From assembly GCF_000092185.1 (NCBI RefSeq), contig NC_014160.1, positions 1,178,001-1,242,000 on the forward strand: 64,000 bases of DNA, read 5' to 3'. The position numbers and the translations under genes are program-made. The notes beneath the pieces were generated by a model. It saw only the letters and a program-made list of their open reading frames with translations. It was not told where the DNA came from and did no database searches. Below, in pieces: positions 38,823-47,504 of this stretch; position 1 is the stretch's first letter; each line of letters opens with the position of its first letter. The stretch comes from Thermosphaera aggregans DSM 11486. GTDB taxonomy: Archaea > Thermoproteota > Thermoprotei_A > Sulfolobales > Desulfurococcaceae.

Positions 38823-41800
38823 ATGCATAGGGGATTATTCTCTATTCTACTACTAGTGATGTTACTGTTCAGCCTAGCGTTAATTCCTCCGAGGACGGAG
38901 TCGGCTCAGGAGAAAATATATCTAGCGCTCGTATGGCATTACCATCAACCATGGTATTACAGCGTGGACGAGTCCTATTTCACCCTGCCATGGGTCAGAA
39001 TGCACAGTGTTGGAAACTATTACAAGATGGCTTACATCCTTAGCAAGTACCCTGATGTAAGGGCAACGTTCACGTTCTCCGGCTCACTGCTCGAGATGCT
39101 TGTCGACTATGTTGAGGACGGTAAAATGGATGTTAGACAGATCATATCGTGGAAGATTGTTAACGGGACTGTTAACAAGACCGAAGTATTCTCCATGCTG
39201 AGGACGCCGGGCGGATTCTTCGACATAAACTGGAACAGGATCGTAAACGTAATTCCAAGGTTCAGCGAGCTGAGAAGCCTCGCCCAGTCAGCATTTTCAT
39301 CATGCACTGCGACGGCAATCTCTGAGCAGGAGCTTATAGACTGTGTCGTAAACCAGTTTACAGGCGGAAACCTGACGGGGCAGAACGTGGTTGATCTCGC
39401 AGTATTGTTCAACCTGTTCTGGATCGATCCAAGCGTTGCAGAGGAACAATACCCTGATATCTACCAGTTAATGAACCGCGCATACCAGTATAGTTCACCC
39501 GGCTTCACCGTTAGCGACCTGCAAAGGATTCTCGAAGTACACGAAGACATAATGTCGAGGATTACGCAGATCTATCGCAATCTATCCTCAACGGGGCAGG
39601 TCGAGCTGATACCAGTCCCGTACAGCCATCCGTTGGCACCAATCATTGTTGATTTCGGCTGGTCAGAGGATATTGAAGTACATGTGAACGTTAGCATAGA
39701 ATTGTTTAAGAGACACTTCAACTACACCCCAGTTGGTGTATGGCCCGCAGAGCAGGCCGTGAACTCCTACGTCGTCGAGGCCTTTAGGAAGGCTGGGATC
39801 ACCTGGACCATTACAGATGAGTCAATACTGGCTAAGACCGGGGTGTCCACGAGCGATATAAACAACCTGGGCGTCCCATGGTACATAGATTTCCCGTCAG
39901 GCAGGATATACGTGTTCTTTAGACATACTGAGCTGAGCAACCTGTTAAGCTTCCAGTACAGTAACTGGAACCATGTCGACGCGGTTAACGACTTCGTCAA
40001 CAGGGTCTTATCGTTCAGGAGCCAGGCCGCCGGACCCAGACTCGTTGTGGTAGCGCTCGACGGTGAGAACCCCTGGGAGAACTACGAGAGGTTTGGAGAC
40101 CTATTCCTCAACACGCTTTACCAGAAAATCACTGAGCTCCAGTCGCAGGGAGTTTTGGAAACCATAACCCCGCGCGAGTTCATAGAAAGATTCCCTGCGA
40201 CCGCGAGGGAGCTCCCGCTTCGAAACTACCAGTACTTGGATCTTGCCGGGAAGGATATTTCAAACATCCCTGCTGTCGGCTACGGTGATGACTATGGAAG
40301 CCTCCCGAGAAAGACTGTCCAGGCAAGGTTGCCGGAGGGATCCTGGTCAGGCGGTGAAGTAACAATATGGATAGGTGATAGGCAGGAGAACGTTGCATGG
40401 ATGTGGCTCGCCAAGGCTAGGAGCGACATACTGGGAGCGCTGGGCTTACAGAGCTTTAAACAACTGTATGAGCAGAGACCCGATATCGCTAGATACTTGC
40501 TGAAAGCGGAGGCAAGCGACTGGTGGTGGTGGTACGGTGGAGACGGGGGAGGATCCCCTGAGACTTTCGACCCAATATTCAAAGCATACTTGAAAGCGGC
40601 ATACGAGCTCGCAGGCCTCACAGCCCCGGATTATCTTAGCGTTAAAGCATACCCTGATGGCAGGCCGATAGGCTCGTTAAACACCAATATTCCAAGCCCC
40701 GTAGACGCCCAGGTCACAATTGACGGGGTGTTCGAAAGCCTGTGGTGGAACAGCGTATCCCGCGGAGCCGGCTTGAACATTACGGTAGGATCAACCTATG
40801 TTAGAAACGCTTTCATACTGTTCGACCCAGGGAGGCTCTACATCGGCTTCAATGTTTCGGCGACAGGGATAGATCTCAGCAAGCTGGCAGTAGCCATATA
40901 TTTCACATCCTCGAACACCTCACTATCCCCGTTAAGCCCAGGCTACAACATCTATCCGAGGCACACCCCGGTTGACTTGGGGATATACCTTGTGAGAGAG
41001 GTTTTAATCTACCCGGCGAACTCCACGGTGAAGGTTAACGTGGCTGGCGGAAGCGGCTCATGGATCAGCGTGGGAGACGGCGTAGGAGCCGCACACTCCC
41101 AGGGTGGTTTAACAGGATTTGAAGCAGCTGTTCCGTGGAACCTGCTAGGGATACCTAGGGGAGAATACACCTACTTAGCGGCGGCAGTCTATTATGATAA
41201 TGCACTAGTTGAATGGTCTCCGAGACTTGGACTGGTGCATCAGTTGCAGGTTCCAGTAGAGGCTGTAACAGGAAACATAGTGTTCGAAATGGATGACCCA
41301 ATAGGAGACGATGATGGCGCGGGAGGCTATACCTACCCGACCAACCCCGTGTTCGCGCCAGGAGTGTTCGACCTGGTTAAGTTCCAGGTTGTTGACGCCG
41401 GGGATAAGGTAGTGTTCACTATAACCTTCAGAAACCTCGGCGGCAACCCGTGGGGAGGTCCCAACGGATGGAGCATGCAGCAGGTGCACATATATGTTCA
41501 CACAACAATGAGCGGCGGTAAAACCGATACCTTTGGTTTAAACGTGAAAATAGCTGAAGAGCATGCCTGGCACATGGCCCTCATCGTTGCGCCCGGCTGG
41601 GGCACGGACCCTGTTCCAATAGGGGAGAAGACAGGGATATACTACTACGACAAGGAGTCGCCAACTGCTCAGGAAGGGGATTTCAAAGCATACGCTGACA
41701 CAGGTAATAACAGGATCATAGTGGAGGTACCCAAGTCAATGCTCTACGACACCGGCAACATTGACAAGTGGATATATGTTGTAGCGGTGACGAGCCACGA

Positions 41801-42257
41801 CGGCTACTCGCCAACCAGGATAAGAGCGTTCCAAGTTGGCGGTGGAGAATGGGTTGTGGGCGTTCCATCAGACTATGCTGTGGCAGTTCTCAACGGTGTC
41901 CTCCCCTATGTTCTCGACTTGCTGGCTGAAACCAAGGAGGATCAGTACAGCATGCTTAAGAGCTACAGCATCGAAGCCAAGGCTCTTGCCACGTTGAGAG
42001 GAGTTGGAGCATATGTGCCGCCCACTGAGACGACAACGACTCCTACAACAACTACCGAGACAACCACACCCACTACTACGCCGACAGTGACAACCCCGAC
42101 AAACACAACACCATCTCCCACGACAATTCCTGAGGCAACAATTCCTGAGACGACAACTCCGGCACAGTCCTTCGACTACACTTTAATCATCATCGTAGTA
42201 GTAGTGCTGATAGCGGTGGGGGTAGTAGCCTTCCTCTACATGAAGAGGAGGCCTTAG
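38823..42257 (+). CDS. Cell-surface GH57 amylopullulanase
   Basis: A 1144-residue secreted enzyme likely to hydrolyse alpha-1,4 and alpha-1,6 bonds of starch or pullulan. A signal peptide (residues ~1-28) precedes the GH57 barrel: [13 protein letters not shown] (motif 1, residues ~36-46), [10 protein letters not shown] with the presumed nucleophile Glu near residue 306, and [13 protein letters not shown] with the presumed acid Asp near 412. Around residues 640-1040 are beta-rich carbohydrate-binding or DOMON/glucodextranase-like modules. A Thr/Pro-rich linker and a transmembrane helix ([19 protein letters not shown]) with basic tail anchor it to the membrane. It is followed by an ABC ATPase gene and convergent sugar permease genes, which would import the products. 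Confidence 0.92.
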
Positions 42258-42269: not shown

Positions 42270-42307
42270 CTTGTAAACACATCTATATTCTTGGGGTGTT
42301 GTTAACC

Positions 42308-43480
42308 TTGGCACGAGTGAGGCTTGAAAAGGTTGTTAAAAAATATGGCAAAGTAGTAGCTGTTGACCATGTAGATCTCGACATTAAGGATGGTGAATTC
42401 TTCTCACTCCTAGGCCCATCGGGTTGCGGGAAGACAACTACCCTGAGACTTATAGCGGGTTTGGAGTTTCCGGACGAGGGTTTCATATATATTGACGACA
42501 GGGTTGTTAACGATGTCCACCCCAAGGACAGGGATATAGCAATGGTTTTCCAAAACTACGCTCTCTACCCTCACATGACGGTTTTCGAGAACATAGCTTT
42601 CCCGCTTGAAACGCGCAGGAGGGTTCTCAACCTGTCGAAGGATGAGATTAGGAAGAGGGTTTTGGAGACTGCAAGATTCCTAGGTATTGAAGAGTTGCTC
42701 GATAGGTATCCCTCCCAGCTGAGCGGTGGTCAGCAACAAAGGGTTGCGCTGGCAAGGGCCCTTGTGAGGAAGCCGAAGGTTTGGCTACTGGACGAGCCCT
42801 TGAGCAACCTGGATGCTAAGCTTAGAGTGTTGATGAGGAGTGAGCTGAAGAGGCTTCAAAAACAGTTAGGAATAACTACGATATATGTGACTCACGACCA
42901 GGTTGAGGCTATGGGCATGGCTGACAGGATTGCAGTGATGAACAAGGGGAGGGTTGCGCAGGTTGGAACGCCTGAGGAGCTATACTCTAGGCCGGCGGAC
43001 ATTTTCGTCGCAACCTTCATAGGCTCTCCGCCCATGAACCTTATACAGTGCACTATAGTTGAGAAGCAACCATTAGAGTATATTGTCCCCCCTGAGCTTG
43101 AAGGAGGAATCCTCGGGAGCGGCAGGGTTTCCACCAGCACTGTCCTAGAGTGTAGGGAAGGGTTGAACATTCCTCTCGACCCCTCCCTGGGCTCTAGGCT
43201 TCTAGGTGAGGGAGAATCGGAGGTTTACTTGGGCGTGAGGCCGGAGGATACGCTCGTGTTCAAGGAGGCTAGGCAGGGCTTAGGGGTTTTAAAGACAAGG
43301 GTCGAGGTTGTTGAGCCGTTGGGTTCTGAAACCATTTTGAACATTAAAATGGGCGAGGACTTGTTGAAGATTAGGCAACCCGCGGGACTCGTCTTCCAAC
43401 CGGGCGAAGAAGTATACCTGGAGTTTAACTTGAGGAAGGCATTACTGTTCAGCAGGAAAAACGGCAGGCTCCTGGCTTAA
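42308..43480 (+). CDS. ABC transporter ATPase, MalK/MsmX type
   Basis: Energises sugar import by the permeases encoded on the facing strand. Walker [21 protein letters not shown] loop [12 protein letters not shown], signature [19 protein letters not shown], Walker [18 protein letters not shown] loop [19 protein letters not shown], then a C-terminal TOBE/OB domain ([13 protein letters not shown]). About 390 residues, as in the CUT1 ATPases. The start is ambiguous between GTG 42296, TTG 42299 and TTG 42308; the last gives the usual N-terminus. Its stop is 6 bp from the end of the convergent permease gene. Confidence 0.92.
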
Positions 43481-43486
43481 CTGCTT

Positions 43487-44344
43487 CTAACCTTTAACGG
43501 CCCCCATCCTGTACGCTTCTCCAATATATCTTTGAGCGAAAATGTAGACAAGTATGACGGGTATAGCGTATATTAGCGCTAGCGATGCGAAAAGTGATGG
43601 AGCCTGCTCACCTCTCGGACCTATCGCGGTCTGGAAAATATATGCTCCCAGAGTCTGTACTCTCAAGAGGTTTGCCACGAAGAACTCGCCCCAGGCCCCC
43701 ATGAATGAGAACAGTGTTATGATTACCATGGCGCTCCGTGAAGCAGGCAGGACGATTTTGAAGACTATTTGACTCCAGCTGGCGCCGTCTATGAAAGCCG
43801 CTTCGTCCAGCTCTTTGGGGAGATTGTCGAAGTATGTTTTTATAAGCCATGTTTGAAACGGCACGGCGCCAGACGCATATATGAAGGGTAGGACCCACAT
43901 GTTGAATATTGGTATCCCCCATGAGTTTAGGATTACGAGGAACATGAACAAGGCTATTACCGCTATGATCCCGAATCCTCCTCCAACCTGGCTTAGGATA
44001 AGGTAGACATACAAGAGTGTGTCTCTGCCGAAGAATTTGAACCTTGAAAAGCTGTATGCTGCGGGCGTGATCACCACTATGGATATCACGATTGTTAGGA
44101 ACGATATTATAGCGCTGTTAACCAGTGCGCTGTAGAATAGAGGGTCCTGGAACGCTCTCAGGTAGTTTTCAAAAGTCACCCCGTACTCGAAAACCTGTGT
44201 TAGGCTTGTTAAAATAATGCCCTTCTCAGGCGTTATAGACTGTATTATGATGAATAGCACAGGATATAGCATCACGAACAGTATTGTAAACCCCATTACC
44301 GTGGCGAAGATTTTTAAAACCGTTTTACCAATGCTGAAGCTCAT
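43487..44344 (-). CDS. ABC sugar permease, MalG type
   Basis: Inner-membrane permease with six predicted helices. The EAA loop that contacts the ATPase is LDEAAFIDGASWSQIVFKIV. CUT1 family; 285 residues is the normal length. ATG at 44344 begins 2 bp after the stop of the upstream permease gene, with GAGGTG as ribosome-binding site; GTG at 44356 is in frame. It pairs with the MalF-type permease. Confidence 0.9.
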   Translation of the reverse strand: MSFSIGKTVLKIFATVMGFTILFVMLYPVLFIIIQSITPEKGIILTSLTQVFEYGVTFENYLRAFQDPLFYSALVNSAIISFLTIVISIVVITPAAYSFSRFKFFGRDTLLYVYLILSQVGGGFGIIAVIALFMFLVILNSWGIPIFNMWVLPFIYASGAVPFQTWLIKTYFDNLPKELDEAAFIDGASWSQIVFKIVLPASRSAMVIITLFSFMGAWGEFFVANLLRVQTLGAYIFQTAIGPRGEQAPSLFASLALIYAIPVILVYIFAQRYIGEAYRMGAVKG

Positions 44345-44345
44345 T

Positions 44346-45788
44346 TCAACGCCCACCTCTCAGCTTCTTCGAGGAAACAAACCATATGGTTACGTACACC
44401 AGCAGTAAGAGGACTATAACCAGGTATGTTGCCGCAGCATACCCGTAGTCTTTGTCTATTGAAACCCTGTTGTAGCCGAAAAGTATGAGGAATTCGTTGA
44501 CGTTTCCCGAGCGTGTTCCAAGTCCCGGGATTGAAATAGGTTTTGTAGGGCCGCCTCCGTTGAGAAGTAGTGGAACCATGAACGCCTGTAGGGACGCTCC
44601 TGTAGTAAGTATTGCAGCGAACATTAAGGGCTTCGAGATAAGGGGTAGTACAACCCTTCTCAGCCTTGTGAAAGCTGAGGCCCCATCTATGTACGATGCT
44701 TCCACGAGGTCTTTGGAAACCCCTGCGAGAGCTCCCATGGTCACCGTCATTACGAACGGGTATGCAAGCCAGGTCTCGAACAAGTTGTACACTATGAAAG
44801 CATCCCACTCATAGTTGTATATGTCTAATCCAAGCATCTTTCCGAGCTGACCGTTCGGGTTGAACAGGAATCTCCATGTCAGGCCTGAGAGAAGGATTGG
44901 GATCGCCCATGGCGCGAGTATTAGACCTCTCAACACCTTTCGTCCCCATACCAGTGGCGAGGAGTAGATGAATGCGAGTGCAACGCCCACTAGGAGTTTG
45001 AGGGGTACGCTTGTAGCTACGAAAACAGCTGTCTTATAAAGAGAGTAAACGAATCTCGGGTCAGCGAACAGTTTCTTAAAGTTTTCAAGCCCTACATACC
45101 TCATTGTCAACCTTTCGCGGTCGCTTATCAAGCTCTGGGAAACTATTTCGAAGTAGCCTTGCAGGTCACTGCTCATCCCCGTGAAGTATTCCTCAGCACT
45201 GCGTATCAAGTAGATTGTAAGGTTGATACTGTTTAGCAAATCATCCCTACCCATCACGAGGTACTGTGAGGAGAGCCGGGATACCGAGTCGTATATTACG
45301 CTGAGGTTTCTAACAGCCTCTGAGGAGATCAGGGGCCTTGTCGGCTGGAAACCTATTTCAGTACAGTTGAAAGTTTTCTGAACCTGCTCCGGTATCAACC
45401 TAAGTCCTTGAACCGTGACATATATTGCTGAAGCGTTAAGCATCACGTATAAATCAGTAGTGTGATCCTCCGATTCCTCAACAGCTTGCTTGAAAGCGAT
45501 TAACTCTTTTTCAAGCGCTCTCAATGTGTTAGCGACTTTTTCAACAACGTCTTCCGCTCTCTCTGTCAGGTTCTCCTGTGTCGTGATCACATTAATGCAT
45601 GCTAACGTGTTATCTATTTCCTTTAAAACCTCAGGGTTGGGGAGGAGATTTTCCTCAGTGGCATTGGTGAAAGCTATGCCGATGGAGAAGAAAAGAGGCC
45701 AAATACTGAAAAACACGTAAAGAACAATGCTTGCCAGGGCAAGAGCGATCCCAACGCGAGAGGGGTATAAAATCTTTTTAACGCTCAT
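44346..45788 (-). CDS. ABC sugar permease, MalF type, with large external loop
   Basis: About 480 residues. One helix at the N-terminus (VGIALALASIVLYVFFSIWP) is followed by an extracytoplasmic insertion of ~200 residues (roughly 45-245), as in MalF, then the conserved permease core with EAA loop LVEASYIDGASAFTRLRRVV and GRKVLRGLILAPWAIPILLS. The ATG at 45788 has AAAGGGG just upstream; the frame is open to TTG 45809. The large insertion probably contacts the sugar-binding protein. Confidence 0.9.
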   Translation of the reverse strand: MSVKKILYPSRVGIALALASIVLYVFFSIWPLFFSIGIAFTNATEENLLPNPEVLKEIDNTLACINVITTQENLTERAEDVVEKVANTLRALEKELIAFKQAVEESEDHTTDLYVMLNASAIYVTVQGLRLIPEQVQKTFNCTEIGFQPTRPLISSEAVRNLSVIYDSVSRLSSQYLVMGRDDLLNSINLTIYLIRSAEEYFTGMSSDLQGYFEIVSQSLISDRERLTMRYVGLENFKKLFADPRFVYSLYKTAVFVATSVPLKLLVGVALAFIYSSPLVWGRKVLRGLILAPWAIPILLSGLTWRFLFNPNGQLGKMLGLDIYNYEWDAFIVYNLFETWLAYPFVMTVTMGALAGVSKDLVEASYIDGASAFTRLRRVVLPLISKPLMFAAILTTGASLQAFMVPLLLNGGGPTKPISIPGLGTRSGNVNEFLILFGYNRVSIDKDYGYAAATYLVIVLLLLVYVTIWFVSSKKLRGGR

Positions 45789-45865: not shown

Positions 45866-47401
45866 TCACCCACCTAGACTCTGCATTATAGTTGCATACG
45901 CCTCATCAAGTTGCGGATCCACGGCGGCAAGAGCAGCCTGTATCGCCTCTTCAACAGTCTTACCCTCTGCTAGGGCATTAGTGTACTCGCCGATTATAGC
46001 GTTCAGGTTGGTACCTACACCCCATACCTTATCCATCTTGGGATCTTTAGGCATTGGAGAACTCCTCAGTACCTGTTGCATGAAACCGTATACTACCGGG
46101 AATTGAGACCTATTGTTGACAACGTACTGTATTACTGTTTGTTTAACGGGAACGTAACCGTTCTGCTCGACAAGTATTTTCAATGCGTTATCGTTTAAAG
46201 CCACGTATAGTATGAAGAGAACGCTCGCATATGTCCTCTGGACGCCTCCAGATGCAGCTAGTATTGTGAGATACAGGTTTCTGAAACCACTGAAGGGTTT
46301 CGGAACATTGTTGCCTATGTTTGGAATAGGAATTATTTCAATATTTTCTAGCCCGAGAGCGCTTTTAATTGAGGGCAGAGCCCATGGACCTGTGATGATC
46401 ATTGGTGTTTTACCTGTGAGGAAGTTGTTTAATTGATTGTTGAAGCCTAGGTCGGTGGTGTCTAGGTATGGTAAAATGTTTTGAATATAGAACTTGACAC
46501 CATCCTTTGTTCCAGTGGTGTTAACGCCCACGGATCCGGTTTCCTCATTGTAATAGTATCCTCCAAACGCTGTGATGAATGGGTAGAGATGGTAGGGGTC
46601 GAACTGATAGGATAAACCGTATTTTCCTTGACTAGGATTGTGGAATTGTTGCATAATATTCTTCATCTCCTCGAAGGTTGTGGGCGGGTTGGGAGCCAGT
46701 TGCTTGTTGACGATGAGGGCGATCGCCTCGCCCGCATAGGGCAGTCCATAAGTCTTAAGCTTATAGGTTACTGCCGACATGGCCAAGGGCTGTATAGCTG
46801 GGGCAATGTTGTTGATTATCGCCTCGGTTCCGATATATTATTCAAGGTTTAGTATCCATCCCTTATCAGCGAAGGAGCCTATCCAGTCATGCGCCCACGT
46901 GAAAACGTCGGGCGCCTGCCCAATAAAGCTCTCCCTCTGCTCAGGCGGGAGTGCGGCTATCGCGGAGATCTGTGTTTTCAATTGATCCATGCTGGAATAG
47001 TGTATTGGGATAACGTTGATGCCAGGATATTCCTGTTTGAACATGTCGATTACTTGCTGGAACGCGTTGAGCTCGGCCTCGGATAAAGCGTGGCCGAAGT
47101 ATATTGTAACGGAAACCTCCCCGTTCTTGGCGGCATCAACGAATGCTTTGAAGTCGGCGGGTACCGTGATGGATAAATCGCCAATCAATATCACGTTGCC
47201 CGGAGGAGGAGTGGTGGTCGGGGTTGTCGTAGTTTCCGTCACGGTCGGCGTGGTAGTGGGCGTGGTTGTCGTACCAGTTGGCGTCGTGGTTGTCGTGGTT
47301 TGCTGTGAAATAAGGTATGCTCCGGCAATTGCCGCAACAGCTACGATCAATACTATTATTACGGCTTGAATCTTTGTGAGAGCCTTACTCAAGGGTTTCA
47401 C
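45866..47401 (-). pseudogene. Sugar ABC transporter binding protein, interrupted by one in-frame stop
   Basis: Maltodextrin-type extracellular binding protein that should deliver sugars to the two downstream permeases. GTG 47401 opens an N-terminal membrane anchor (QAVIIVLIVAVAAIAGAYL), a Thr/Pro linker, then the binding-protein fold (VSVTIYFGHALSEAELNAFQ). At codon 188 there is a TAA (46838-46840). The same frame then continues without another disruption for 323 codons: EAIINNIAPAIQPLAMSAV, YGLPYAGEAIALIVNKQ, ending MQSLGG. The two halves together give the family length (~511). It could be a recent inactivating mutation, a sequencing error, or readthrough; re-initiation at ATG 46786 would give a protein lacking the signal anchor. 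Confidence 0.85.
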
Positions 47402-47504
47402 CCTTAATTAAATAATCACGCCTTTATTCTAAAAAACTTTTTTGGGGAGAGTTTAACTCCTCGTTTTAATCAGCTCCTGCTTCATACTGATTTTTAAACA
47501 TCAA

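Follow-up and report, generated by a model that had tools for sequence, protein, structure and literature searches.

A premature stop codon in the binding-protein gene of a maltodextrin-type ABC importer in Thermosphaera aggregans: a probable recent pseudogene

We analyzed a stretch of 64,000 nucleotides of the Thermosphaera aggregans M11TL genome (the window) and find that the gene for the solute-binding protein of a maltodextrin-type ABC importer is interrupted by a single in-frame TAA codon, and that the rest of the import locus is preserved. We consider it highly probable that this gene is a genuine and recent nonsense pseudogene. The lesion is a known kind of event and its interest as a genotype-phenotype lead is modest. 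It provides a genetic hypothesis, open to testing, for the reported failure of the type strain to grow on maltose, amylose or glycogen despite its preserved starch-degrading enzymes and transporter core, and it catches a gene loss at an early stage; in broader biological terms the surprise is small.

Results

The interrupted gene occupies positions 45866..47401 on the reverse strand of the window and consists of 511 codons, the internal TAA included, followed by a terminal TGA. Its GTG start codon is at 47401-47399(-) and the terminal TGA ends at 45866. The premature TAA is codon 188 (46838..46840, reverse strand), after which translation gives 323 sense codons in the same frame and no other lesion; the position of the stop and the frame reported in a first-pass annotation of this DNA are thus exact. 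In its sequence context the TAA is unique within the T. aggregans genome, and a whole-genome search joined both pieces as one 513-codon frame with '1 TAA'. Upstream of the gene, an alignment reveals a block, AAAAGTTTTTTAGAA (47428..47443, reverse strand), that is conserved in T. aggregans, Thermosphaera sp. strain 3507 and genome G002 and nearly so in KUA_Bin13. Judging from its sequence, this block is probably the core promoter of the broken gene, still in place. A bacterial-type promoter and terminator scan was set aside as inapplicable to archaea.

The sequences on either side of the stop fall into a single binding-protein family, as the first-pass annotation had proposed. Pfam models PF01547 and PF13416 both score above their cut-offs; residues 109-186, upstream of the stop, align to positions 5-73 of SBP_bac_1, and the sequence 3' of the stop aligns to positions 104-285 of SBP_bac_1 and 72-266 of SBP_bac_8. 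With the stop written as X, the best match among solved structures is the maltodextrin-binding protein of Pyrococcus furiosus (1ELJ; E = 9e-64), in an alignment that spans residues 102-480 of the T. aggregans protein; the T. aggregans copy differs in its interruption at codon 188 and in its long Thr/Pro linker. Among NCBIfam models, the C-terminal piece scores best with MalE; its 108 bits fall short of the cut-off of 291. On the strength of the 1ELJ match and the MalF-, MalG- and MalK-like and GH57 neighbors, we identify the gene from its sequence as that of the binding protein of a maltodextrin-type importer, with ligand binding predicted. Owing to the TAA at codon 188 there is no continuous frame that covers both lobes, and the gene is a broken member of this family, not a working one.

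The neighboring genes are intact, in agreement with the first-pass annotation, according to their Pfam domains and either low dN/dS or a comparison of invariant columns. A MalF-like permease (44346..45788, reverse strand; dN/dS 0.077) carries the BPD_transp_1 domain and has MalF as its top NCBIfam model, under the cut-off of that model, and is followed by a MalG-like permease (43487..44356, reverse strand; dN/dS 0.039). Convergent with the permeases is a MalK-type ATPase (42296..43480, forward strand) with ABC_tran, OB_MalK and TOBE_2 domains and no departure at any of 133 invariant columns. Beyond it lies a gene for an amylopullulanase-like GH57 enzyme that is secreted, anchored in the membrane and equipped with a Glucodextran_C module (38823..42257, forward strand; dN/dS 0.067). 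The nearest relatives retain the same set of neighbor genes. A stop flagged in the MalF gene of genome G022 was dismissed, as it sits at the C-terminal end of that gene.

We next compared the interrupted gene with its homologs. Matches are present in 25 of 40 Desulfurococcaceae genomes, and none of the 22 near-full-length homologs, a count from which we excluded the T. aggregans gene itself and two matches that were weak or fragmentary, has an internal stop. Homologs in other families of the same order are open as well. The codon homologous to the stop is ACA in strain 3507, ACA in G002 and ACG in KUA_Bin13, Thr in all three of these nearest relatives, and the stop is private to T. aggregans among the homologs found. 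The closest comparison is with the strain 3507 ortholog (G001; 518 aa), which has 93% identity to the T. aggregans protein after the stop and the same neighbors in the same order, but is intact, with ACA in place of TAA. Because TAA differs by at least two substitutions from the Thr codons of the three relatives, it must have arisen through an intermediate codon or by a double change; AAA is a plausible intermediate, given that more distant relatives often have Lys (AAA/AAG) at this site.

The remainder of the gene looks selected. Measured against strain 3507, its dN/dS is 0.065 before the stop (mature part) and 0.037 after it, and the intact neighbors range from 0.039 to 0.077. The 323 open codons and the post-stop value together reject an in-frame opening by chance, and the similarity of that value to those of the intact neighbors indicates that the lesion is recent. 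From a simple neutral expectation, with 2.3 nonsynonymous sites assumed for each codon, we obtain a rough upper bound on the age of the loss of approximately 4.5% of the T. aggregans branch. Amino-acid changes in the gene number 12 specific to T. aggregans versus 4 specific to strain 3507, a difference that is not significant (P = 0.08), and the excess is weaker still (P = 0.27) when set against the synonymous changes (46 versus 34). T. aggregans has changes at two residues that are invariant in 14 relatives, V236A and D285N, each located 3' of the stop. Strain 3507 has no such departure, and in the permeases and the ATPase there is at most one per lineage. These two changes, very small numbers, are suggestive of first decay.

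A sequencing or assembly error would typically also show up as a single lesion in a gene otherwise under selection; on that reading the 2010 genome would be wrong and the gene intact in the organism. The reported coverage of the genome is 104.8x with 454 and 277x with Illumina, and the reported error rate is below 1 in 100,000 (PMC3035292). Although this bound still permits about 13 errors genome-wide, the combined depth of about 380x on two platforms and the Illumina polishing speak against one here. The typical 454 error is an indel, unlike this TAA, which is a base change outside any long homopolymer. In addition, TAA departs from the Thr codon of the near relatives at two positions out of three, such that one miscall on the ancestral codon cannot yield it, and the changed invariant residues suggest a real relaxation of constraint. 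We therefore regard an error as quite unlikely. The first-pass annotation had held that a sense codon in sister strains would point to an error; such a codon does not imply an error, since another strain can simply be without the mutation.

A different way to keep the binding protein functional would be for the UAA to be read through or bypassed to give a full-length product. Both the downstream frame, which is apparently constrained like the neighbors, and the retained probable promoter are in keeping with this idea, yet recency alone accounts for the low dN/dS. To place the stop in a genomic context, we surveyed about 400 kb of the T. aggregans genome, the window included, against a comparable stretch of strain 3507. 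Among 145 sampled orthologs (46,911 aligned residues), the only real mid-gene stop is that of the binding-protein gene; other raw in-frame stops, mostly antisense frames, over-long starts and shifted ends, were dropped after filtering and inspection. TAA is the terminator of 36 of 137 sampled genes, so that general suppression of UAA would be costly and is unlikely, and the absence of the stop from all relatives excludes a conserved recoding site. A tRNA search of the genome with Rfam RF00005, and with intron-tolerant ARAGORN at the places it matched, yielded 39 anticodons, of which none reads UAA. The same approach missed about seven isoacceptors that one would expect, Trp, Asp and His among them; these may have unusual introns, and the gap leaves a small chance of a suppressor tRNA. 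In the literature we found no usable precedent for archaeal UAA readthrough. Taken as a whole, a functional full-length protein made by readthrough or bypass is very unlikely, and natural UAA readthrough of useful efficiency in T. aggregans is more doubtful still.

Alternatively, the cell could produce the two pieces as individual chains and assemble them, or put the stub itself to use. Both pieces are open frames. The N-terminal piece (46841..47401, reverse strand; 187 aa) holds a hydrophobic export or anchor segment and a linker rich in Thr and Pro, along with the first portion of the binding domain, covering SBP_bac_1 positions 5-73 only. The C-terminal piece (45866..46837, reverse strand; 323 aa) has no signal peptide, and its expression would require re-initiation. 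In-frame starts for this do exist, the earliest 3' of the stop being TTG 46786 and ATG 46780, but neither is preceded by a Shine-Dalgarno-like motif. The halves would moreover end up in different compartments, and no split version was found in any relative in the Desulfurococcaceae search. We consider a functional split protein or stub extremely unlikely.

Discussion

Of the options that the first-pass annotation had left side by side (loss, error or readthrough), a recent loss is favored by a stop unique to the species and at least two substitutions from Thr, by a remainder of the gene that, first signs of decay aside, still looks selected, and by the phenotype. Under this nonsense-pseudogene reading, translation would stop after 187 residues. 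Because the hydrophobic N-terminus is kept, the product is predicted to be an exported or membrane-anchored stub that contains only the beginning of one lobe and hardly any of the binding site; the "truncated cytoplasmic product" of the first-pass annotation does not fit this N-terminal piece and would apply only to a restarted C-terminal piece. Without its binding protein, the intact MalF/MalG/MalK core would be unable to import the oligosaccharides freed by the external GH57 enzyme, and we infer that the importer is dead. The mutation may have arisen before isolation or in laboratory culture on peptide media. The case, a dispensable uptake gene with one premature stop and little further decay, does not differ in kind from ordinary prokaryotic nonsense pseudogenes; 23 pseudogenes were counted in the T. 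aggregans genome paper (PMC3035292).

The alternative that the importer depends on another binding protein, also raised by the first-pass annotation, finds no evident candidate. The T. aggregans genome encodes three other binding proteins of the same superfamily, and none is an evident substitute: one lies beside a GH16-like beta-glucanase, one resembles a phosphonate-type protein and one is ModA-like. No second maltodextrin-type binding protein is evident in the genome. As a separate observation, strain 3507 has a fifth SBP_bac_1 protein of 449 aa (L119, G001:C1:398788-399672), for which the same search gave no clear T. aggregans counterpart.

According to the genome paper, the type strain fails to grow on maltose, amylose or glycogen (PMC3035292). 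The T. aggregans genome retains four GH57 genes and two GH13 genes that are free of stops, as in strain 3507, and the uptake step is therefore the visible gap. It is plausible that the lesion contributes to the reported lack of growth; the match between phenotype and lesion concerns one strain, and the non-growth may have other causes. For strain 3507, growth on various polysaccharides has been reported, starch not being among those named (PMC7729421). The carbohydrate-transporter list of the T. aggregans genome paper appears to omit the broken locus, its tags being placed here by approximate position only (PMC3035292). Our search of the literature on the lesion and on starch use by T. aggregans returned nothing about the lesion beyond the genome papers.

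Lastly, we note a 657-aa anchored protein (L043:4838-6811(-)) that adjoins another ABC transporter in the T. aggregans genome, near 480 kb. It contains a stretch much like the Glucodextran_C module of the GH57 enzyme at 38823-42257(+), and it may serve its adjoining transporter as a carbohydrate-binding partner at the cell surface.
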